Below, one piece after another: positions 5,181-25,891 of a stretch of 64,000 bases of DNA; the stretch's first letter is position 1; each line of letters begins with the position of its first letter. Below the pieces are notes generated by a model. It was not told where the DNA came from. It searched no databases and was given only the letters and a program-made list of their open reading frames with translations. The position numbers and the translations under genes are program-made. Source of the stretch: Thermodesulfobacteriota bacterium (GTDB taxonomy: Bacteria; Desulfobacterota; GWC2-55-46); contig CP129479.1 of the NCBI GenBank assembly GCA_030583865.1, positions 1,252,744-1,316,743 of the forward strand, in the 5' to 3' direction.

Positions 5181-6554
5181 TTACCCCTTTCGCATGGATT
5201 CGAGCCTGTTGTATTTTTTGATGATATGGTGCACCGTCGGCCTGCTTAGGCCGAGCTCTTCCGCGGCCTTGCTTATGTTGCCGTTGTGCTTGAGTATAGC
5301 CTTCTGCACGAACCTGACCTCGAGCTCTTCCTTCGCCTTCTTGAGGTCGAGGTGCTGCGGGGCCTCTTCGTCCGGGCCGAAGCCGAGGTCCGAGGACCTT
5401 ATCATCGGGCCGTCCGAGAACGTCACGGCCCGCCTGATCCTGTTCTCGAGCTCCCGGACGTTGCCGGGCCACCCGTATGAGTTCATGGCTTCTACCGCCT
5501 CGGGGCTGAGCGCCTTGGGCCTCGCCCTGTCAGGTACGTATTTCTGGAGGAACGCCCTCGCGAGAAGGACTATGTCCTCTCCGCGCTCGCGAAGCGGAGG
5601 CAGGTCTATGTTGACGACAGCCAGCCTGTAGTAGAGGTCCTCCCTGAACCTTCCCTCGGCGGTCATCTTCCGCAGGCACTTGTTCGTGGCCGCGATCACC
5701 CTGACGTCTATGCCTATCGAGTCCCTCCCGCCGATGCGCTCGATCCTGTGGTCCTGGAGGAACCTCAAGACCTTTACCTGAAGAAGGAGCGGCAGTTCCG
5801 CTATCTCGTCGAGAAAAAGTGTGCCGCCCTGCGCGAGCTCTATCCTGCCGTTCCTCTGTATGTGGGCGCCGGTAAACGCGCCCTTTTCGTGGCCGAAGAG
5901 CTCGCTCTCGAGAAGGCTGTCCGGGATCGCGCCGCAGTTTATCGGGATGAAGGGCCGCTGCTTCCTGAGGCTTTGGGCGTGTATCGCCCTTGCGATAAGC
6001 TCTTTTCCGGTGCCGCTCTCGCCGCCGACCAGGACGGGCACGTCCGAGGCGGCTACTTTCCTGACCGTGGAGAACACTTCCTGCATCCTGGAGTTCATCC
6101 CGAGCACCTCTTCGAAGCCCTGGTTCTCGGCGGCCCCCCTCTGGAGCCTTGAATACTCGTACTCGAGCGAATGCACGTAGACCGCCCGCCTCAGTATTAT
6201 CTTGAGCTCCTCGATGGCTACGGGCTTCACGAGGAAATCGTGCGCACCGTGCGATATCGCCTTTATCGCCGAGCACCGCTCCTTGTTGCCGGTGATTACG
6301 ACCACCTTGGCCAGGGGATCGTGCTGGAGTATCCTCCCCAGGAGCTTGAAGCCCTCGCTAACGTCGTTTGTGTAGGGCGGGAGCCCAAGGTCGAGCGTTA
6401 CGAGCGCCGGGCGGCCGTCCCGAAGCACCTGCATGGCGCATTCCGGGTCGGGCGCAGTAAGGACGTCGAAATCGCCAGCCAGGGCCCAGCGCATCTGGCC
6501 CCTGATGGCCTCGTCGTCCTCTATGATAAGGAGTTTCTGTTTCAGCATTTCCAT
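5181..6554 (-). CDS. prsR: Sigma-54-dependent response regulator PrsR
   Basis: This 457-residue protein has an N-terminal receiver (E12-D13-D14, phospho-acceptor D55, K110), a complete sigma-54 activator AAA+ domain and a Fis-type HTH ('SKAAEELGLSRPTVHHII'). Walker A is GESGTGK (178-184), the sigma-54 loop is GAFTGA (225-230) and Walker B is LFLDE (246-250), all canonical. The unusual 'LGLPP' after the phospho-acceptor is shared with the PEP-CTERM-box response regulator family, and the partner kinase is encoded directly upstream with a TGATG stop/start overlap. The start at 6554 is chosen because of that overlap. It probably activates sigma-54 promoters of matrix or exosortase-target genes; none of those promoters was recognised here. 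Confidence 0.88.
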   Translation of the reverse strand: MEMLKQKLLIIEDDEAIRGQMRWALAGDFDVLTAPDPECAMQVLRDGRPALVTLDLGLPPYTNDVSEGFKLLGRILQHDPLAKVVVITGNKERCSAIKAISHGAHDFLVKPVAIEELKIILRRAVYVHSLEYEYSRLQRGAAENQGFEEVLGMNSRMQEVFSTVRKVAASDVPVLVGGESGTGKELIARAIHAQSLRKQRPFIPINCGAIPDSLLESELFGHEKGAFTGAHIQRNGRIELAQGGTLFLDEIAELPLLLQVKVLRFLQDHRIERIGGRDSIGIDVRVIAATNKCLRKMTAEGRFREDLYYRLAVVNIDLPPLRERGEDIVLLARAFLQKYVPDRARPKALSPEAVEAMNSYGWPGNVRELENRIRRAVTFSDGPMIRSSDLGFGPDEEAPQHLDLKKAKEELEVRFVQKAILKHNGNISKAAEELGLSRPTVHHIIKKYNRLESMRKG

Positions 6555-8620
6555 CAGCCCGCGCTTGAGGCAAGCCGCTCGTCGGCATGGAGCGGGAACC
6601 TGAGCGTGAAGACAGTGCCGGCCCCTTCCTCGCTTTCCACCTCGATAAGGCCCCCGTGCGCTTCCATGACCGCCTTGCAATGGTAGAGCCCGACCCCGAA
6701 ACCGTTTTTCTTGGTGGTAGTGAATGGCCTGAAAAGCCCCTTTTCCATGAGGCTTTTCGGTATGCCCGAGCCGGTGTCGGAGATCCTCACGGTGACGAAA
6801 TCCCGTACGGACTGGAATGACACGCCAATCTCGCCGCCGGCCTTGACCGCTTCGCACGCGTTCATGAGCATATTGAAAAAGACCGTCTCTACCGCGTCGG
6901 AGTCCATGCTGCAAAGGGTGCAGACGCCGTTAACGTCTATGCTGATCCGCTCGGCAGCTCCCGAGGGGAGCCTCCCTACGGCGCTTTCCAGGACCGATTT
7001 CAGGTCTCCCGGCCTTTTCTCGATGCTCATCTGCCCGCCGCCGCCCGCCATCTTTTCTATAAGCGCCTTCATCCTTGCGACAGTAAGGTCGATGGCCTTT
7101 ACGGCTTCCTTCTGGAACTCGGGGCTTGCCATGTTCGACCTGGCGTTATGGCTGAGGAGCGCAAGGGAGTTTGTGAAGTTCTTAAGGTCGTGCATCACGA
7201 AGGAAGACATTCTGCTGAAGGCGTCTGCCTCCTTGACCTCCAGGAGGTCCTGGCTGAGCCGGAGGTTCTTTATCTGCACCGCGGCCTGCGCCGCCACGGC
7301 GCGAAGGAGGTCGAGGTCGTTCCTTGAATAGGGCCGGCCCCCGGCACCCTCGCCGGCCGTGAGGAACCCTATCAGCTCCCTTCCAGCGGCGAGTGGCGCG
7401 CAGATTACGGCTCCGGACGAGAGCGACAGGCTTTCGGGCCCATCCGTGCCCATATCGTCGTCCGCAGGCTTGCAATCGGATAGATAGAACGGCGCCCCTG
7501 TTGCCAGCATGTGCTCGACGAGCCAGTGCGAATGGGGAATGCGCCTGAACCGCTGCTCGAGTTTCGAGGAGGTGGAAAAGAAGCAGCCCTGCCCCTGGTC
7601 ATAGAGCCACACGTATACGTTCGAGGCGCCGAGCGTTGCGGAGACCATCTCCGACAGGACCGCCTTTACTCCGGCCGGGTCTGTCCGTGAACTTATCTTC
7701 TCCGTCGCTTCGAGCCACCGTTCCTTGTAGTCGTGCCTATTCCTTCCGAGCGCCGCAATCAATCCCGAGTCTTTCGTCCGGCTCTGCACATGCGGGAGGA
7801 CGGCTGCGGAGAGGGCGGCCAGGACAATGAAGGAGGTAAAATAGTCGCCTGTACCGGCGCCGGCGATCCAGGATACGAGTAGAGAGACAGGTATGCAGAC
7901 CGCAACCAGAAGGAGGGCCAGGGATTTCCCGAGCCCCGGCCTTGATACCGATATCTCAAGCGTATAAAGCCCGCTGGACGATAACGAGACCGCGATGCGC
8001 GCCGCGGCTGCCGCGGCACACGCCGATGTCGCCGCTATTGAAAGCCTCCCGGCGGAGCCGAAGACCGCGAGCTGGAGCGAGAGCAGTGCATATAGCGCAC
8101 CGAACGCGCCCATGCCGATTGCGATCGAGCTTATCTCTTTCCTGACGCTCCCGCTGAAGGCCCTGAAGGTGCCCTCGATCTGGACAAGAGAGACTACGAG
8201 GGCCAGCGCCACGGCCGCCTGGAAGAGAACCCCGCCAGGTCCGGGCTCGAGCCTTCCGTCCGCTATGACCACGGGGCCTTCCGGGAGCGAGACAAGGACA
8301 GAGAAGAAGAGGGCCGAGGCGAGGAGCGCCAGGGCAGGGGAGCAGCGGACCAGGGCCCTGGTTTTTTCAACCCTCCCGAAGGCGGCGGCAAAGACGAGGA
8401 GCGTTGCCGCGAGGAGGCCCTGGCCGAACGCGAAGAGATGCGCGCCATAGCCCGACATCATCAGCGCCCCCCCGGCGTTAACGGACGCTATCGCAAGCAT
8501 TGTCGCGAGCAGGGCGGCGACCGCCGGGTTTGCCAGCCCCCTCCCTCTTATCATGAGGAGCCCCGGGACGAGGCTCAGGCCTGCTGCGAGGACCGGTATG
8601 ACGCGAAGCGGCTCAGCCAA
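6554..8620 (-). CDS. prsK: Membrane sensor histidine kinase PrsK
   Basis: The 688-residue protein starts with about eight to ten hydrophobic segments (residues 1-290), followed by a GAF-like domain (about 310-460), a dimerisation/phospho-acceptor helix with the sequence 'FVMHDLKNFTNSL', and an HATPase domain with N-box 'MNACEAV', G1 'SDTGSGIP' and G2 'GFGVGLYHCK'. This architecture matches the exosortase-associated kinase PrsK. The signal sensed by the membrane part is unknown. The start codon is probably TTG at 8620, with GGGAG about 12 bases upstream; no in-frame ATG lies nearby. It is the first gene of the regulatory operon and diverges from the riboswitch-controlled surface protein. Confidence 0.87.
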   Translation of the reverse strand: MAEPLRVIPVLAAGLSLVPGLLMIRGRGLANPAVAALLATMLAIASVNAGGALMMSGYGAHLFAFGQGLLAATLLVFAAAFGRVEKTRALVRCSPALALLASALFFSVLVSLPEGPVVIADGRLEPGPGGVLFQAAVALALVVSLVQIEGTFRAFSGSVRKEISSIAIGMGAFGALYALLSLQLAVFGSAGRLSIAATSACAAAAAARIAVSLSSSGLYTLEISVSRPGLGKSLALLLVAVCIPVSLLVSWIAGAGTGDYFTSFIVLAALSAAVLPHVQSRTKDSGLIAALGRNRHDYKERWLEATEKISSRTDPAGVKAVLSEMVSATLGASNVYVWLYDQGQGCFFSTSSKLEQRFRRIPHSHWLVEHMLATGAPFYLSDCKPADDDMGTDGPESLSLSSGAVICAPLAAGRELIGFLTAGEGAGGRPYSRNDLDLLRAVAAQAAVQIKNLRLSQDLLEVKEADAFSRMSSFVMHDLKNFTNSLALLSHNARSNMASPEFQKEAVKAIDLTVARMKALIEKMAGGGGQMSIEKRPGDLKSVLESAVGRLPSGAAERISIDVNGVCTLCSMDSDAVETVFFNMLMNACEAVKAGGEIGVSFQSVRDFVTVRISDTGSGIPKSLMEKGLFRPFTTTKKNGFGVGLYHCKAVMEAHGGLIEVESEEGAGTVFTLRFPLHADERLASSAG

Positions 8621-8679
8621 AATGCCATTCTCCCGTGCTCAGGGTGATAAAGGTCACATACCTTCGTTCAGCTCTTTAA

Positions 8680-8685
8680 TACAAT
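8680..8685 (+). promoter_or_regulatory. Candidate -10 element for the riboswitch transcript
   Basis: TACAAT matches the sigma-70 -10 consensus at five of six positions and is placed about 25 bases before the first conserved riboswitch bases. No good -35 is present. An inverted repeat AAGGT-N5-ACCTT (8650-8664) sits where a -35 or an operator would be and could serve an activator or repressor. The promoter of prsK on the other strand was not recognised in this 276-bp divergent region. Confidence 0.28.
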
Positions 8686-8705
8686 GTCGAGCGAAAAAAA
8701 TGTTT

Positions 8706-8802
8706 TTGGGAATCCTTTGCTCAGGGCAAACCCCGGGAAACCGGGGGACGCAGAGCAAACGGGACTAAAGAAGACTGGCAACACGCTTCCCGCTCCGTAA
8801 CT
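8706..8802 (+). promoter_or_regulatory. Cyclic di-GMP-I (GEMM) riboswitch aptamer
   Basis: The GEMM-I signature is read directly: AGGGCAAACC (8723-8732), a CCCCGG/CCGGGG stem closed by a GAAA tetraloop (8731-8746), then GACGCAGAGC (8747-8756). A second helix, CGGGA (8760-8764) with TCCCG (8788-8792), carries an ACTAA tetraloop-receptor-like segment. The AGGG before CAAACC keeps the guanine normally used to contact c-di-GMP, rather than the adenine reported for the cGAMP-binding Geobacter variants. This assignment to c-di-GMP is inference. An intrinsic terminator and a strong ribosome-binding site follow, so transcription attenuation of the downstream surface protein is the likely mechanism. 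Ends are approximate. Confidence 0.88.
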
Positions 8803-8842
8803 CGCTCACATCAGACCTCCCCAGCTTCCACGTCAGCCGAGC

Positions 8843-8874
8843 CGCCAAAGGAAAATCCCTTTGGCGTTTTTTTT
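8843..8874 (+). terminator. Intrinsic terminator, riboswitch expression platform
   Basis: A perfect 9-bp stem, CGCCAAAGG (8843-8851) with CCTTTGGCG (8858-8866) and a six-base loop, is followed directly by eight T residues. It lies between the GEMM aptamer and the GGGGAGG ribosome-binding site (8884-8890) of the next gene. It is therefore placed to stop transcription conditionally. Whether c-di-GMP turns the gene on or off cannot be told by eye. Confidence 0.85.
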
Positions 8875-8896
8875 CAAAAAAACGGGGAGGTAGCAA

Positions 8897-10708
8897 ATGC
8901 CTAAGTCAGTAAAGCTAATCTCGCTCTCGGCTGCCGCGGCAATCGCGGTCCTTTTGCTCATTGCGCCGCCTGCGCTGGCGGGCGAGGCAATACTCAAATG
9001 GACCGCGCCGAGCACGAACACGGACGGATCGGCTCTCACGGACCTGGCCGGCTTCAAGGTCCACTACGGCACGCAGTCCAAGTCCTACTCGAAGACGCTC
9101 GATATCGGCAATGCGGCGGCCTACACCGTCCAGGACCTCGCGGCCGGCAGCACCTATTATTTCAGCGTCACGGCCTACAACTCCGCGGGCAGGGAAAGCG
9201 CCTATTCGAACGAGGTCTCGAAGAACATACCGTCCGACACCACCGGCCCTGTACTGACCGGCATCTACTCGACCGACGTCACCCACACGGGCGCAGTCGT
9301 GAGCTGGATGACCGACGAGCCGGCCACGTCCCAGGTGGAGTACGGCACGACCTCCTCCTACGGCAGCTCGTCCTCCGTAGACCAGGCCCTTAAGACCGCG
9401 CACACCCTGTCGCTCGCTGGCCTCCAGCCCGGCACGGCCTACAATTACAGGGTGATAAGCTCGGACGGGTCCGGGAACAGGACCGCTTCCGGGAATTTCA
9501 AATTCACGACGGCGCCTGCGCCGGACACCGCGCCGCCGGTGGTCTCGAACCTCCTTGTAAAGGACGTGACCAGCTCTTCGGCGCTCGTCACATGGACGAC
9601 GAACGAGCCGGCGACCACGCAGGTCGATTTCGGCCTTTCCGGCGCGTTTACTTCATCGACACCCCTTGACAGCTCCCTCAAAACAGTGCATTCGGTCCTT
9701 CTCGAGGGGCTCCAGGGGTACACTGCCTACAGCTACAGGGCCGTCTCGACCGACGCAGCGGGTAATACTGCCGTGAGCGCGGCAAAGACCTTCACGACAT
9801 CCAACCAGGCCCCGGCCATCAACTCCCTGAGCTCGTCTCCGCTCTCAGGGTCGGCCCCTCTTCAGGTACAGCTCTCAGCCGAGGCTGTGGACGCCGACGG
9901 TTTCATCGTAAGCTATGAATGGGACTTCGACGGAGACGGCGTATACGACGCCGATACAGGCTCGGTGCCCTCGACGCCGCATACCTACCAGGCAGCTGGG
10001 ACCTATTCGCCAAAGGTCAGGGTCAGGGACAACGGCGGCGCCATAACGGTGTCCGAGCCGCTTACCATATCGGTCGCGTCGGCCTCGAACAAGCCGCCGG
10101 TAGTCGTCTCGCTCGTCGGTACCGTGTCACAGGAAGGCTCCACGGTCTCCATCAAGTTTGACGTGAAGGCGTCCGACCCCAACGGGGTCATAGTGAAGTT
10201 CGAGTGGGACTTCGACGGGAACGGCGTCATAGACGCGGTCACGACTACGGCCCCGGCCAAGTTCTCTTACAGCTCGCCGGGCACCTACAAGCCGGTAGTT
10301 AAGGTTACCGACGACCAGGGCGGCACCGCAACCGCGACCACGACAGTGGAGGTACCGTCGGCCTCCCTCTCGGGCGGGTCGTCATCGCCCGCCCCTGAAT
10401 CCAAGGGCGGCTGCTTCATCGCGACGGCTGCCTACGGAAGCTACCTGGAGCCCGAGGTCATGGTGCTCCGCGAGTTCAGGGACGGGGTGTTGCTGCCGAA
10501 CCCGATAGGCAGGGCGTTCGTGGACTTCTACTACAGGGTGTCCCCTCCTGTCGCGGACTTTATCGCCAGGCACGAGGTGCTCCGCACCGCGACCAGGACC
10601 GTACTGACGCCGATAGTATACGGGGTCAAGCACCCGCTACTTGCGGCCTCGTTCTCGGTATTTGCAGTCGGGGGCGCCTTCTTCGCCGTAAGGAGGAAGC
10701 GGGATTAA
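8897..10708 (+). CDS. Secreted FN3/PKD protein with CFI-box C-terminal domain
   Basis: The 603-residue protein has a signal peptide (residues 1-28, ending 'PALA'), one fibronectin type III domain (about 29-115), two related fibronectin/purple-acid-phosphatase-N-like beta domains (about 116-210 and 213-303), and two PKD domains (about 306-395 and 400-490). Each PKD domain carries an Asp/Gly-rich, possibly calcium-binding loop ([11 protein letters not shown] and [11 protein letters not shown]). From residue 504 a CFI-box domain begins ([18 protein letters not shown], Cys506), and the protein ends with a hydrophobic helix and RRKRD. It looks like a surface adhesin or matrix protein. GGGGAGG precedes the ATG. 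Expression is behind the riboswitch and terminator. The tail is built like a sorting signal but has no PEP motif. Confidence 0.85.
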
Positions 10709-10722
10709 GCAAGCAGCCACTC

Positions 10723-10763
10723 AGCCGCAAGGGGTGCCTAGCCGCCCCTTGCGGCTTTTTTTT
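10723..10763 (+). terminator. Intrinsic terminator of the FN3/PKD gene
   Basis: A perfect 12-bp stem, AGCCGCAAGGGG (10723-10734) with CCCCTTGCGGCT (10745-10756), is followed by a run of eight T from 10756. It starts 14 bases after the stop codon. The right arm also encodes the last residues (AARGG) of the convergent exosortase. On the minus strand no T-run follows the hairpin, so it should terminate only the plus-strand message. Confidence 0.88.
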
Positions 10764-11643
10764 CGATTTTCATGAGCGCCCACAGAACGACGCCCGCCAT
10801 GAGGAGCGCAAGCAGGAAGAAAGGGATTCCGCCCCTGGTGTGCAGCGTCCCGTAGAGCATGCGCTCGTCTATATGGTAGCCTGCCAGCGTCAATACGGTA
10901 ATCCTTATGCCGTTTTTAACGACGGCTATAGGGAAGACAGCAGCCACGAAGGCCAGCCTGCCCGGCCAGGTCCTGAGGAACATGTTCGAGGCCGTCACCC
11001 CGGCGATGAAGAGGACGAGGCTGGAGCGTATGCCGCTGCATTCCCTTGCGACCTCGACCGTAAGACCCGGGAGGTGGAAGAAAAGGCCCTCCCGCTCGAC
11101 CGGAGAGCCGGAGGCGCTCAGGAAGAACCACGCGGCCTCGGCAGAGCCCCTTTGAAGGAATTTTATGAGCGGGTCGAGCGCGGCTTCCGGCACGGGCACC
11201 GCGAAAAGGAGAAAAAGGAGCGGAAAGAGCGCCGTCCTTGACGCGTGGCCGCCGAAGACGGTCACGAAACCGCCGATCCAGAAGACGACGGCAGAGAGGA
11301 CCATAGTTGCCAGATGGAAGCTCCCGCCGTCGGTGAAGAGGCTCCTCCCTGCTATGAATACCGCTGCCCCGGCCAGGAGGACCGGGACGCCGTACAGCGG
11401 CCCGTAGGCGGCGGTCGACAGGATCTCCTTCCTTTTCAGGTACATGAGGTAGGCTGTGATAAATGGTATGAGCGTTATGTGCGAATACAGCTCGCTATCC
11501 ATCGCAAGGCCGTAGAGTCGCGCCAGGTGCTCGGAAAATGCCGCTGCGATGCCGCCGCTGAAGAATACGATGCCAGCCACCCTAGCCCTCGCGCCCGTGC
11601 CGGGAGTCTCTCCCGCCGTCCCGCTTTCCACTCTGATGGACAC
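10738..11643 (-). CDS. Exosortase/archaeosortase-family transpeptidase
   Basis: This 301-residue integral membrane protein has about eight hydrophobic segments and the three exosortase active-site motifs in order: Cys202 in 'ARECSGIRSS', Arg247 in 'KNGIRITVL' and His268 in 'LHTRGGIPFF'. Exosortases cut and transfer proteins bearing a C-terminal sorting signal, usually PEP-CTERM, in the periplasm. It is shorter than XrtA-type fusions and has no EpsI domain, so the subtype is uncertain. The start is taken as GTG at 11643, with GGAGAG upstream; a longer frame runs back into the glycosyltransferase gene. It is the last gene of the polysaccharide locus and is convergent with the CFI-box protein gene. 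Confidence 0.88.
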   Translation of the reverse strand: MSIRVESGTAGETPGTGARARVAGIVFFSGGIAAAFSEHLARLYGLAMDSELYSHITLIPFITAYLMYLKRKEILSTAAYGPLYGVPVLLAGAAVFIAGRSLFTDGGSFHLATMVLSAVVFWIGGFVTVFGGHASRTALFPLLFLLFAVPVPEAALDPLIKFLQRGSAEAAWFFLSASGSPVEREGLFFHLPGLTVEVARECSGIRSSLVLFIAGVTASNMFLRTWPGRLAFVAAVFPIAVVKNGIRITVLTLAGYHIDERMLYGTLHTRGGIPFFLLALLMAGVVLWALMKIEKKAARGG

Positions 11644-11645
11644 GC

Positions 11646-12548
11646 CTATCTCTCCGTTTGCGCGCCCGGAAGCTTCAGGCGCTGTTTGAGGTTTGCCTTG
11701 TACCTGCCGCCCTTGGCCTTGAACTGCCTCACGACCCACCTAGATATCTGCGCGAAGCAGAGCCCTTTCTCGTACCACCCGAGGCTTGCGCGGTCTATCG
11801 CGTGGAACTGCTCGGTAACGAGCTTGCTCTGGATGAACTTGTAGATGTTCTTCCGCGACGAGTCCCACCAGACCGCGATCTCCTTCCTCGGCAATCTCCG
11901 GGAGTTTTTCTCGTGGTCCCGTCTCAGAAAGAGGTGCTCTGGAAGCTCATGGAACCTGCCCCTCAGGATGATTTCCAGCAGGAGGACATAGTCGGCGCCG
12001 AAATACTTCCCCAGGAGCTGCGTTTCCCTGAGGACCGATGAGCGCATAAGGCCGAATACCGCGTTTGCGAGGTTCACTTTCGTAAGATAGTGGCGCAGGC
12101 GCTCGTGCGGCCTGTCGTAGGGTATGTGGAGCCTGTCGTCGTACTTCCCTATCTCCTTGCCGGTCTCGTCTATGAGGACGGTCTTCGGGTAGCAGAGCGC
12201 GACCCTGGGCTCGGCCTCCAGTAGTTCAAGGCATCTTTCCAGAAGGAGCGGCGAGCAGACGTCGTCGTACGCCGCCCACTTGAAGTACTCGGCGCGCGAG
12301 AGGCGGAAGACGCGGTTGAAGTTGTCGGCGGCCCCGAGGTTGCGCGCGTTCCTGTGCAGCCTTATCCTCCGGTCGCGGGCGGCGTACTCCGAGCATATGT
12401 CGAAGGTCGAGTCCGTCGATGCGTTGTCGGAGATGACGAACTCGAAATCATTGAAGGTCTGCCCGAGTATGGATTCGATCGAGTGCCTCAAATACCGCTC
12501 GGCGTTGTAGACGGGCAGCCCTATGCTTACCTTGGGGGTCTTTCCCAT
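11646..12548 (-). CDS. Family 2 glycosyltransferase
   Basis: The 300-residue protein has a GT-A fold N-terminus: 'VSIGLPVYNAERYLRHS', the nucleotide-binding 'DNASTD' and a metal-binding 'AAYDDV' in place of a strict DXD. It most likely adds a sugar to the lipid-linked repeat unit on the cytoplasmic face. The ATG at 12548 has AAGGG upstream; the earlier in-frame start overlaps the previous gene without support. It lies 14 bases after a C-methyltransferase gene, so donor or acceptor may be a branched deoxysugar. That is inference from position only. Confidence 0.85.
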   Translation of the reverse strand: MGKTPKVSIGLPVYNAERYLRHSIESILGQTFNDFEFVISDNASTDSTFDICSEYAARDRRIRLHRNARNLGAADNFNRVFRLSRAEYFKWAAYDDVCSPLLLERCLELLEAEPRVALCYPKTVLIDETGKEIGKYDDRLHIPYDRPHERLRHYLTKVNLANAVFGLMRSSVLRETQLLGKYFGADYVLLLEIILRGRFHELPEHLFLRRDHEKNSRRLPRKEIAVWWDSSRKNIYKFIQSKLVTEQFHAIDRASLGWYEKGLCFAQISRWVVRQFKAKGGRYKANLKQRLKLPGAQTER

Positions 12549-17020: not shown

Positions 17021-18175
17021 TCATGTCTTTTTTGCGTCTGCGATAACGGGCTGGAGGCCCTCGGAGACCGCTTCGCCGGTATCGACCGGCAGCCACTCGG
17101 GCGCGAACGCCTTGTCGTACTGCACGAAGCTCGACTTGAGGTTCCAGTTCGCGCAGGAGCTGTGGTAGCAGTTCATGCAGCTCGGCGGCATCCGTTCCTC
17201 CGAATTCACGGAGGCGCGCATCCTGATCATCCCGGCTGAGTTCCAGGCTTCGAGCGGAGAGGCGTAATCCTTGATGCCCAGCAGCTTTTCAGAGGAGGAC
17301 TGGCATGGACGGACAAAGCAGTCGCTCCCGATGTAGAAGTCCCTCCAGGCGAAGGCGCACGGCTTGTGTGGCATGCTGCCCGCATCGCCCTCGCCCTGTA
17401 TTTCGGGGAGCTTGAGCTTTATGCCCTCTGCGGCAGCGAGCTCAGAGGCTAACGCGAAGCTTTCCCTTACCGTCTCCTGCATGTCGAGAAGGGATTCGCC
17501 TGCGAGGCTTTCGTCGAAGACGGTAAGGTATACAACCTTCACCTCCGGGACTCCGGTCCTCTTTGCGAGAGCTACCATGCCCGGCAGCTCGCTTATGTTC
17601 CTTCTCATGGCGGTGAAGACGAAGTTGACGTACGGATAGAGCGCTCCGCGCCTATTCTTCTCTTCCATGAGCGCCGAAACCGAATCGACCTCCCGGAGGA
17701 AGTTGCCGCCTTTCCTTATCGAGTCGTTGGTGGCGGCCGTGGAGCCGTCGAGCGAGACCGCAATGAGGTCCACGTGGTGCTCGAAGACGAGGTCCTTTAT
17801 CCTCGGGATGGTGCTGCCGTTCGTGACGAAGTATTTCCGGAGCCTCTTGAAGCCGTTAAGGTATTCGAGTATCCGGGGGAGCTTCGGGTGGAGCGTTCCC
17901 TCGCCCCAGCCGTGGAGCGTGACCTCCTCGGTCTTCGAATAGAACGCCTCGAACGCCGTCACGACGTCCACCGGGAGGTCGTTCACCCTGAAGTTAACGG
18001 CCTCCCGGCCGCACATGATGCACTGGAAGTTGCACCTGTTCGTGAGCTCGAATACAATGCGCCTGGGGAAGGACTTGAGGACCGTAGAGCCTTCCCTGAA
18101 CTCCCTCTGGTTCAGAATGCTGTTAGCCTGCTGCTCTTCGGTAAGCGGCGTCTCGAAAAGCCTTTCAGTTTTCAT
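17021..18175 (-). CDS. Radical SAM protein with C-terminal SPASM-like cysteines
   Basis: The 384-residue protein carries the radical SAM cluster motif C-x3-C-x2-C in 'NRCNFQCIMCG' (about residues 48-56) and later cysteines ('CAFAW', 'CFVRPC', 'CMNCYHSSC') arranged like a SPASM domain that binds auxiliary iron-sulfur clusters. Such proteins do radical chemistry on peptides, sugars or alcohols; the substrate is unknown. The gene overlaps the FrhB-like gene upstream by 11 bases, so the two are translationally coupled. A redox partnership with that iron-sulfur flavoprotein-like protein is plausible but is inference. Confidence 0.85.
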   Translation of the reverse strand: MKTERLFETPLTEEQQANSILNQREFREGSTVLKSFPRRIVFELTNRCNFQCIMCGREAVNFRVNDLPVDVVTAFEAFYSKTEEVTLHGWGEGTLHPKLPRILEYLNGFKRLRKYFVTNGSTIPRIKDLVFEHHVDLIAVSLDGSTAATNDSIRKGGNFLREVDSVSALMEEKNRRGALYPYVNFVFTAMRRNISELPGMVALAKRTGVPEVKVVYLTVFDESLAGESLLDMQETVRESFALASELAAAEGIKLKLPEIQGEGDAGSMPHKPCAFAWRDFYIGSDCFVRPCQSSSEKLLGIKDYASPLEAWNSAGMIRMRASVNSEERMPPSCMNCYHSSCANWNLKSSFVQYDKAFAPEWLPVDTGEAVSEGLQPVIADAKKT

Positions 18176-19448
18176 GGGTGCCCTCGTTCAGGTGGTTGAT
18201 ATTTCCCCGCTTCCCCTCTATGTATGAAACGCGCCTTGCCCTGGCGTAATAGCCCCGCTTGACGACCCTCCTTGCCGTTCCGGCGAATGAACGGGCCTTC
18301 TCGCCGATCGACAGGCCGAGCCAGTTCCGGAAGAGGCTGAAACCCGATAGCCTCGGGACCGGTATGCCGAATAACCGCATGGCCGCGAGCCTGCCCCATA
18401 TTGCGCTCCTCTTGGCGAGGAGGTTTGCCTGAGACCTGGCGAGAAGCGCCGGGTCTATTCTCCTGAGCTTCAGATAGCCCGCGTCCATGGCCGAGCCTAT
18501 TATCTTTCTTCCGAGCCCTGTCCTCGCAACCACCATAGAAAGCCCCGGCTCCGATTCCACGGCCTCCCTGTACCAGGGGTCCCCGCAGGATACGTCCGCG
18601 AACTCGCCTGTGCCGTCCGGGCAGAGATAACACCTTAGCGGCCTGTACTTCTGGAGAAAGCCCCAGGCCTCCATGTAGGAAAGCTTCACCTCTTTTCCGT
18701 TTTTAAGCGCCGCATTCCACATGCCGGGCCATCCCATGCCCCTGTACCTGAGGTTCTTGAGCTCTTCCGCGGACACGTCCAGCCTCTTAAGCAGCTCGAG
18801 AGTGCCGAGCGTGGACGGCGTGCCCGCGCAGAATATCGAGAGCGCTAGTCCTGTTTTCGACTTAAGTGCCGGCCTCATTTCGCCGGCCTTCCTCAAAGCG
18901 GCCACGTCGCAGGGCTTGCCGATAAAGACGGAAGGCGAGGGGGCCGCTTCGATCGATGCAAGACCATCGCAGGGCGAAGCCGGAGAATACCTCGAACCCG
19001 AGCGTTTTATGAGCTCCTCTCTCGCCAGGCTAAAAACCGTTCTGTTCCTCCAGGGCTCGTCCACGGCTCCTCCGCTGTGAAGAGCGCCGTGCATCCCGAG
19101 CCTTTCAATGCAGTATAGCGCGAGGGCTGTAGCGGCCCCGCCAGACGACCCGGCAAACCTTATTTCGGGGTCGGAAGCATGCCCCTCCCAGACATCCAGA
19201 ACCGGCCCCCAGCCCCGGGTGAGTTCCCTGAGCGCGTCTTCAGGCCATTCATTGTGGGACGTTTCCAGGCCCGGGCATACCTTTACGCAGTCGCCGCATC
19301 CGTCGCACCCGCTCCCGACCGCCGGCCGAATCCCGTCCCGGGTTATATCTACGAGCCGGACGTTCCCCTGCCTGCACGCGTATGCGCACGCGCCGCACCC
19401 GAGGCACAGGCGCCACGCGGCTATCTCTTCGACATTTTTGAATTCCAT
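18165..19448 (-). CDS. Iron-sulfur FrhB-like (coenzyme F420 hydrogenase beta family) protein
   Basis: The 427-residue protein has two N-terminal 4Fe-4S motifs (CLGCGACAYAC, about 15-25, and CDGCGDCVKVCP, about 49-60), then the FrhB/FdhB N- and C-terminal domains ('GSSGGAATALALYC', 'FIGKPCDVAALRK', 'ADVSCGDPWY'). Family members include F420-reducing subunits, but relatives in polysaccharide clusters occur beside pyruvyl transferases and probably use flavin rather than F420. It likely feeds electrons to a sugar-modifying enzyme, possibly the radical SAM protein encoded next with an 11-bp overlap. Start ATG at 19448. Confidence 0.83.
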   Translation of the reverse strand: MEFKNVEEIAAWRLCLGCGACAYACRQGNVRLVDITRDGIRPAVGSGCDGCGDCVKVCPGLETSHNEWPEDALRELTRGWGPVLDVWEGHASDPEIRFAGSSGGAATALALYCIERLGMHGALHSGGAVDEPWRNRTVFSLAREELIKRSGSRYSPASPCDGLASIEAAPSPSVFIGKPCDVAALRKAGEMRPALKSKTGLALSIFCAGTPSTLGTLELLKRLDVSAEELKNLRYRGMGWPGMWNAALKNGKEVKLSYMEAWGFLQKYRPLRCYLCPDGTGEFADVSCGDPWYREAVESEPGLSMVVARTGLGRKIIGSAMDAGYLKLRRIDPALLARSQANLLAKRSAIWGRLAAMRLFGIPVPRLSGFSLFRNWLGLSIGEKARSFAGTARRVVKRGYYARARRVSYIEGKRGNINHLNEGTHEN

Positions 19449-24457: not shown

Positions 24458-25792
24458 TTACTGTACGGAAAGCGAAGCAGGGGGCTGGGGCGTGGTCGAT
24501 ACGTTCACCGTCCCGCCGAACTGGAACGCGCCCCTGTCCCAGATGCCGTTACTGCCGCGCACGATGCCGAGCATGTCGACATTGAAGGGCGAGGAGAGGC
24601 TCATGCCGGACTTCGTGGAGGCCTTAAGCCTGAAGTCCTTGCCCGAGTAGCTGACGAACGGGTCGCCGGAGCCGACCTGTATGTTGGATTCGCTTATCTT
24701 GCCCTCGTTCGAGCCCTTGAACCAGTTGTAGTCGTGCTTTACGCCGCCGCCGAATGCAACGGACGGGCTGTTGTACCAGAGGTTGTTATAGGCAACGACG
24801 CCGCTGATGGACCTGTATATCGGGAATATCTTGCCTGAGCCGCCGCTTTTGAGGTCCACGAAGGTGTTGTTGTATATCCTGATGTTGTTCGCGTAGTAGG
24901 TAGAGTCCGACGACCAGCTCCCTATGGCGCCGTTGTTGGAGGTGCCGCCGAAATCCACGGTCCACTGGAATATGTTGCCGTATATGTCCCAGTTTTTGGC
25001 GCGGCCCATTATGATTCCTCCGGTGCTCCTGTAGTCCCGTATGTAGTTGTGGCGGAGCGTCACGTCGTGCGTGTCCCTGGCAGACCATATCTCGGAGTGC
25101 TGGGAGGATGAGCCGTTGGTGCCGCTCCGCTCAAGGAGCGAATACTCGATCAGTATATTCGAGACGTTTATGGTGTAGAATACGACCCTGCTCGGGTGGT
25201 GGGCCCAGATGTGCTGGAACTTCCAGTTCTTGCCGCCGTATATGCCATAGATCGCGTCCTGCCCGGTGCATGACGAGCACGGGTTGAACGAAAGCTCCAT
25301 GTGCTTGAAAGTAAGATTGTTGACGGCCTTAGGCATGCTTATGAGTTTTACGGTATTGCTGGAACCGGCATGCTGGACCTTTATGCCGTGTCCCGAGGTC
25401 CACTTGCCCGGTCCGCCGCCCGTCTGGCCGTTAATCTCATAATAGCCGGTATTGAACTTGAGCGTGCTTGTGAATACCGCCGGCCCGTCGGCATAGGAGC
25501 TGTTCCAGCCGGTATTGGTCCCGTGGTCGGAGGCCGTGGCCTTCTTTATCGTTATCCACTGGCCGTTCTCCGCGTCGCCGAAGGTGCGGCCAGAATACGT
25601 GCCCTTGGCTATGTAATAGGTGTCGCCGCGCACAAGAGAGGATGGAAGGGCCGGATAGGCGTTCGTCCAGTCGGCCCCGCTGCCGTTGCCGCTTGCCCCT
25701 GCCCGCACGTAGCGGACTGCGGCGTCGGACATGTCGGGGAAGGCGCATATTACCAGGAAGAGAAGCGCCGATAAGATTCCGATTTTCTTCAT
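24458..25792 (-). CDS. Secreted right-handed beta-helix protein
   Basis: The 444-residue protein has a signal peptide (residues 1-24, ending 'DMSDA') and then beta-helix-type sequence: short asparagine-rich turns such as 'NVSNILIEYSLLERSG', 'VTLRHNYIRDYRSTGG' and 'NIRIYNNTFVD'. Such folds are common in polysaccharide lyases, epimerases and adhesins, so it may trim or bind the polymer in the periplasm or outside. AAAGGAGG precedes the ATG. It has its own AT-rich upstream region with a CRP-like palindrome and ends at a strong hairpin, so it may be an independently regulated unit within the locus. No PEP-CTERM tail is present. Confidence 0.8.
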   Translation of the reverse strand: MKKIGILSALLFLVICAFPDMSDAAVRYVRAGASGNGSGADWTNAYPALPSSLVRGDTYYIAKGTYSGRTFGDAENGQWITIKKATASDHGTNTGWNSSYADGPAVFTSTLKFNTGYYEINGQTGGGPGKWTSGHGIKVQHAGSSNTVKLISMPKAVNNLTFKHMELSFNPCSSCTGQDAIYGIYGGKNWKFQHIWAHHPSRVVFYTINVSNILIEYSLLERSGTNGSSSQHSEIWSARDTHDVTLRHNYIRDYRSTGGIIMGRAKNWDIYGNIFQWTVDFGGTSNNGAIGSWSSDSTYYANNIRIYNNTFVDLKSGGSGKIFPIYRSISGVVAYNNLWYNSPSVAFGGGVKHDYNWFKGSNEGKISESNIQVGSGDPFVSYSGKDFRLKASTKSGMSLSSPFNVDMLGIVRGSNGIWDRGAFQFGGTVNVSTTPQPPASLSVQ

Positions 25793-25875
25793 TACAACCT
25801 CCTTTAGCCTATTCTTTTCTACACCCCCCTGGGGCGTGTGTTTTCAGAAGGATACAGGAGATTGCATCTCAAAAA

Positions 25876-25891
25876 TGTGATTTAAATCACT
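25876..25891. promoter_or_regulatory. CRP-family-like palindrome
   Basis: TGTGATTTAAATCACT contains a perfect 14-bp palindrome (GTGATTTAAATCAC, 25877-25890). It fits the CRP consensus TGTGA-N6-TCACA at nine of ten defined positions; FNR-type proteins bind related sites. It is in the AT-rich stretch upstream of the beta-helix gene and just downstream of a candidate -10, where a bound protein could repress. Confidence 0.5.

Follow-up and report, generated by a model that had tools for sequence, protein, structure and literature searches.

The leader of the CFI-box protein gene that starts at position 8897 of the window (the whole 64-kb stretch of DNA analyzed here) carries a GEMM-I riboswitch, which we interpret as a c-di-GMP ON switch that arose from a cGAMP-type switch with A at position 20 (A20) through a single base change. 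We give this interpretation a probability of roughly 0.65. It is built on the aptamer, its terminator, the strands that the two cannot use simultaneously, their conservation, the identities of key bases and a tree of the downstream proteins. From these features we infer the ligand, the ON polarity, the promoter and the adhesin role of the product.

A cmscan search matched RF01051 (GEMM-I) at 8715-8849 (+) with 56.1 bits (E=2.8e-8) over model positions 1-87, i.e., its full length, the gathering score being 35 bits. This was the sole Rfam match in the window, and a genome-wide search of the single contig (2,751,635 bases) found one GEMM-I copy, the window element itself. The element belongs to the known GEMM-I riboswitch family, as the original prediction had proposed with RF01051 as the model to score, and the predicted succession of GEMM-I core, GAAA-capped stem, receptor-like P3, terminator, ribosome-binding site (RBS) and ATG was found as well (Table 1). 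The RF01051 alignment showed all the ligand-pocket residues to be present, with G8725, A8752 and C8845 as the G20, A47 and C92 equivalents; C8845 corresponds to the Watson-Crick partner of the ligand guanine. The upper stem of P3 is capped by a long variable loop of approximately 40-50 nt, and P3 reads CCACGUC in the window, with ACG where most relatives have AUG. The minimum free energy fold of the whole leader was not unusual compared with shuffled sequences (z -1.1) and was dropped as uninformative, so that the evidence for a riboswitch is the covariance model match together with the conservation of 13 orthologous leaders. RNAalifold favored an alternative helix around P2, in which 8714-8722 pair with 8753-8762. 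This helix might correspond to a conformer without ligand, in which the terminator arm is released.

Table 1. Features of the riboswitch leader, its target gene and the neighboring genes (window coordinates)
Feature	Position	Strand	Remarks
PEP-CTERM response regulator	5181-6914		TIGR02915 566.9, above 502.6; next to PrsK-like kinase
PrsK-like histidine kinase	6554..8620	-	Divergent; TIGR02916 270.9 bits, below 300 cut-off
CRP-type palindrome GTGA-N6-TCAC	8644..8657	+	Centre 8650.5, about -41.5 from inferred start near 8692
-10-like TACAAT	8680..8685	+	Nearly fixed spacing in 13 leaders
P1 5' strand CCUUUG	8714..8719	+	Perfect complement of 8846-8851; invariant 13/13
Selectivity base G (Vc2 G20 equivalent)	8725	+	Equivalence via RF01051 alignment
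P2 with GAAA tetraloop (8737-8740); GAAA-capped stem 8731-8746	8726..8751	+	RF01051 alignment
A47 equivalent	8752	+	Just 3' of P2
G48 equivalent	8753	+	Just 3' of P2
P3	8755..8842	+	Tetraloop-receptor-like internal loop
C92 equivalent	8845	+	Within invariant CCGCCAAAGG
P1 3' strand CAAAGG	8846..8851	+	Common to terminator 5' arm
Intrinsic terminator stem-loop	8843..8866	+	Perfect 9 bp; arms 8843-8851 / 8858-8866
U8 tract	8867..8874	+	
RBS GGGGAGG	8884..8890	+	Outside terminator hairpin; start ATG 8897
603-aa secreted protein	8897..10708	+	Signal peptide, FN3-type repeats, two PKD domains, CFI-box-CTERM
Terminator 3' of gene	10723..10756	+	14 bp
Exosortase	10738..11739	-	Convergent; PF09721; TIGR02602 above cut-off

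The perfect terminator that had been predicted was confirmed: its 9-bp, U8-tailed hairpin reached -15.1 kcal/mol, whereas shuffled sequences averaged -4.8 (z -4.2), and none of 200 shuffles was as good. Nucleotides 8846-8851 serve both as the 3' strand of P1 and in the 5' arm of the terminator, and they are invariant in all 13 leaders. The ligand-pairing C (8845) and CAAAGG sit inside the invariant CCGCCAAAGG, which constitutes that arm. The hairpin forms in each of the 13 leaders despite their varying 3' arms, and it is followed by a U-run in 12, the G003 leader having the hairpin without U-run. As P1 and the terminator share a strand, aptamer and terminator are mutually exclusive, and the ligand should prevent termination. 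This layout, with the shared strand at 8846-8851 and the U8 tract 3' of the stem, predicts that the element works as a transcriptional ON switch.

We searched all 30 genomes of the family for the leader pattern. The leader was present in 13, where it invariably precedes the orthologous CFI-box gene; Rfam misses two of these leaders, in G002 and G019, which were recovered by alignment. Some CFI-box relatives lack the leader, namely those in G006, G014 and G035 and an additional copy in G021. Across the 13 aligned leaders, 96.1% of the cells of the named structure are paired, and P2 and upper P3 have more two-sided changes than any of the shuffles, with such changes in 3 of the 6 pairs of upper P2. 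The equivalents of A18, A47 and C92 are kept throughout, as is the GAAA loop. Both P1 strands and CCGCCAAAGG show zero variation in the 13 leaders, so that covariation cannot assess P1 and was discarded as evidence for it. The maximum-likelihood protein tree placed the riboswitch-bearing proteins in one clade (support 100/99), with the proteins of the G20 leaders grouped together (94/95) and an A20 sister beside them (98/97). This nesting indicates that A20 is ancestral and that one A-to-G change is enough to explain G20. The neighborhood is conserved as well, with a divergent PrsK-like kinase upstream in 10/10 riboswitch loci from named genomes and a convergent exosortase downstream in 8/10, some contigs ending too early.

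Two further observations concern these relatives. The CFI-box frames break early in L043 (G001, 331 aa) and L038 (G027, 67 aa) while homology continues, which may reflect either errors in the metagenome-assembled genomes or pseudogenes. In a distant relative, bacterium BMS3Bbin05, a 47% identical CFI-box protein is preceded by a GEMM-I element of its own with its own terminator (L041, 2845-2925). That element is built differently (64.2 bits; c-di-GMP-I-GGC type, 58.9) and looks independent.

The base at position 20 (window 8725) is G in 6/6 members of the genus, source genome included, and A in 7/7 orthologous leaders of other genera. G20 is the base of the c-di-GMP type and A20 that of the cGAMP type. 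The A20 that marks cGAMP riboswitches (GEMM-Ib) was found neither in the window nor in any of the six genus members. Among GEMM-I matches of the class outside the genus, those with a CUCAGRGC core have A20 in 23/23 cases, the 7 orthologues included. In a table of PMC11352751, a G20A GEMM-I aptamer appears as a cGAMP sensor.

Position 48 distinguishes the source genus further. Outside it, the class matches comprise 27 A20/G48, 16 G20/A48, 1 A20/A48 and 0 G20/G48, whereas G20/G48 occurs in 6/6 genus members. A pattern search of 395 genomes of the phylum gave 118 sequences, i.e., 89 G20/A48, 16 A20/G48, 10 A20/A48 and 3 G20/G48, all 3 of the latter from the source genus; the sequences in both counts are related and do not represent independent events. 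The two positions appear coupled, G48 being found only with A20 outside the source genus. Tandem GEMM-I aptamers were also seen elsewhere in the phylum, three at G319:C2:145886-146424 and two at G045:C31:1484-1676. The pocket of the window element, having retained G48, differs from the standard G20/A48. As G48 is paired in the alternative helix as well, it may persist for reasons of folding rather than of ligand binding.

These data soften one part of the original prediction. Its claim of direct second-messenger control was right about the riboswitch class, the terminator and the target gene, and the base G20 agrees with the ligand that it named. However, the RF01051 score is blind to c-di-GMP versus cGAMP, so that the match does not settle the ligand, and the orthologues of other genera have A20. 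We therefore regard c-di-GMP as the likelier ligand of the window switch, not as an established one.

A pattern search gave five GGDEF motifs of the canonical GHxxGD form in the genome, which also encodes one protein with a GHLRGS...GGDEF signature, a GAF-GGDEF protein at L167:1061-2158:- (G000:C1:1020409 region). The best PDB match of the latter was the Hypr domain 6D9M (156 bits), followed by the GGDEF protein PleD (108). It has Ser at the selectivity position, which is the Hypr signature (PMC6456294, PMC9140294), and LYNSRF replaces LxNRR; the NSR/NRR position was taken as the putative Arg537 site, which favors c-di-GMP (PMC6456294). Motif and structural match indicate a GacA-like Hypr cyclase, as expected of a cGAMP-riboswitch host. 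Hypr enzymes represent 0.17% of GGDEFs overall (PMC9140294). Ser-GGDEFs with an AGY codon were found in 55/59 relatives and with TCN in 14; they are nearly universal in the class, where they come as GSKLL and GSRVL paralogues. The occurrence of one or more Ser-GGDEFs in 55/59 genomes suggests that Hypr/cGAMP signaling is widespread in this uncultured class. We rejected the idea that having or lacking a Hypr cyclase predicts which base stands at position 20, since nearly all genomes of the class have Ser-GGDEFs. Loss of the GSRVL-type paralogue does not track the base cleanly either, as it is absent from 4/6 G20 genomes and kept in G002 and G003. With both Hypr and canonical GGDEFs encoded, c-di-GMP and cGAMP may both be present in the source bacterium, and the inventory does not decide the ligand.

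The main competing explanation keeps the ON switch and changes its ligand to cGAMP, or to cGAMP and c-di-GMP together, G20 having merely broadened a cGAMP-type pocket. According to PMC9262584, position 20 of Vc2 contributes to the selectivity between cyclic dinucleotides, without being described as an absolute filter. The A20 of the orthologues and of the class relatives with the same core, the retained G48, which marks the A20 type in the phylum sample, and the near universality of Hypr-type genes, source genome included, also speak for cGAMP. We nevertheless consider this explanation less likely, because G20 is fixed in the whole genus although A20 is ancestral, and because G20, the c-di-GMP-type base, belongs to by far the commonest pair of the phylum, G20/A48. 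On the c-di-GMP interpretation, we propose more tentatively, at somewhat less than even odds, that a single A-to-G change in the genus ancestor moved an orthologous switch from cGAMP to c-di-GMP, the G20/G48 pocket being its trace. If true, a second-messenger output would have been rewired in nature while the cGAMP-synthase gene was retained in the genome.

Two other possibilities appear highly improbable. The element might be an OFF switch or act on translation, the terminator not being its output; some GEMM-I elements, such as Cd1, are OFF switches (PMC9262584), and the G003 hairpin has no U-run. This is difficult to reconcile with a P1 3' strand made of terminator 5' arm nucleotides in 13/13 leaders, with the U-run in 12/13 and with an RBS outside the hairpin. 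Least probable of all, the leader might be conserved for RNA stability or protein binding, cyclic dinucleotide sensing having been lost. The G20/G48 combination is indeed unusual, and G002 also alters conserved pocket neighbors (CAUGGCUAACC), but the full-length covariance model match above threshold and the pocket equivalents and GAAA loop kept in 13/13 leaders argue against such a loss.

Upstream of the aptamer, GTGA-N5-GTCACATACC is invariant in 13/13 leaders, and GTGAN6TCACAT occurs twice in the window compared with 0.03 expected matches. A consensus promoter scan found no -35/-10 pair; a missing sigma-70 -35 is what a class II promoter, which depends on an activator, would be expected to show. 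Two proteins of the genome match HTH_Crp_2 above cut-off, and one is a class III cyclase gene product. The leader promoter is thus probably driven by a CRP-type activator. Comparable palindromes are visible in the riboswitch-less relatives L039, L040 and L116, and the CRP-type palindrome may be an older control layer than the riboswitch. A second GTGATTTAAATCACAT palindrome is located at 25875-25890 (-), beside an asparagine synthase gene and upstream of an open reading frame (24458-25792, -) with no Pfam match. The CRP-like site did not reveal a regulon, because the exact GTGAN6TCACATACC occurs just once in the genome.

The product of the regulated gene has a signal peptide, a C-terminal transmembrane segment and a basic tail. 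It matched fn3, PKD_4 and Pur_ac_phosph_N (FN3-like) in Pfam and NF041770 (CFI_box_CTERM) with 108.9 bits (cut-off, 40) at residues 506-574, consistent with the FN3/PKD CFI-box protein that the original prediction had announced. It is a predicted surface protein with a putative adhesin-like role, and the terminator that follows its gene indicates a monocistronic unit. The exosortase/exopolysaccharide (EPS) setting, also part of the prediction, is correct and conserved in relatives, but it does not extend to the protein being an exosortase substrate: no PEP-CTERM NCBIfam model matched the protein with E up to 1, CFI-box-CTERM serves as its sorting signal, and a nearby exosortase gene is no evidence that the enzyme processes it. 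Elsewhere in the EPS locus, a radical SAM/SPASM protein (17021-18175, -) with a weak match, below cut-off, to the tungsten-cofactor maturase TIGR04317 adjoins an F420-hydrogenase-beta-like protein (18165-19448, -; below cut-off).

In the mechanism that we propose, a CRP-type activator would drive the promoter and the leader would fold into the aptamer. c-di-GMP would bind at the three-way junction, with G8725 and C8845 reading its two guanines, and would hold P1 closed (8714-8719/8846-8851). The 5' arm of the terminator would then be unavailable, allowing readthrough into the CFI-box gene, whereas without ligand the terminator (8843-8874) would form and transcription would halt before the RBS. 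With the A-to-G change at the selectivity base in the genus ancestor, control of the same adhesin-like protein would have passed from cGAMP to c-di-GMP.

The window element resembles V. cholerae Vc2 of RF01051 in its full-model match, its GAAA-capped P2, its receptor-like P3 and its A47, G20 and C92 equivalents, and differs from it at the position-48 equivalent, where it has G and not A, by the long variable P3 loop and by being nested among A20 relatives. In the cGAMP switch of G. metallireducens pilM, the terminator sequesters the ligand-pairing C75 and the ligand turns transcription on (PMC9262584). As in that GEMM-Ib switch, the P1 3' strand and the ligand-pairing C lie inside the terminator, predicting ON behavior here too; the orthologues of other genera have the A20 signature of Geobacter GEMM-Ib (pilM/4YAZ type), whereas the source genus has G at the selectivity position. 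A c-di-GMP riboswitch upstream of the gene for the collagen-binding surface protein CbpA in Bacillus thuringiensis (PMC7423583) similarly places a cyclic dinucleotide riboswitch before a surface adhesin gene, the adhesin role being putative in our case. Unlike CbpA, which is Gram-positive and cell-wall-anchored, the window protein carries a CFI-box-CTERM and is encoded in an exosortase locus, in a lineage of Deltaproteobacteria type. It covers all 69 positions of the NF041770 CFI-box-CTERM model and differs from it in nothing tested. A CFI-box surface protein is thereby placed under predicted cyclic-dinucleotide control in an exosortase/EPS locus. Ligand gain or swap in cyclic-dinucleotide circuits is usually studied with engineered G20A mutants. 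Judging from the sequences, the novelty here lies in evolution: a G20 switch occurs in a lineage that otherwise has the A20 of the cGAMP type, and in which orthologous leaders of the same gene within one family differ at position 20, making the ancestral and derived forms directly comparable in vitro.
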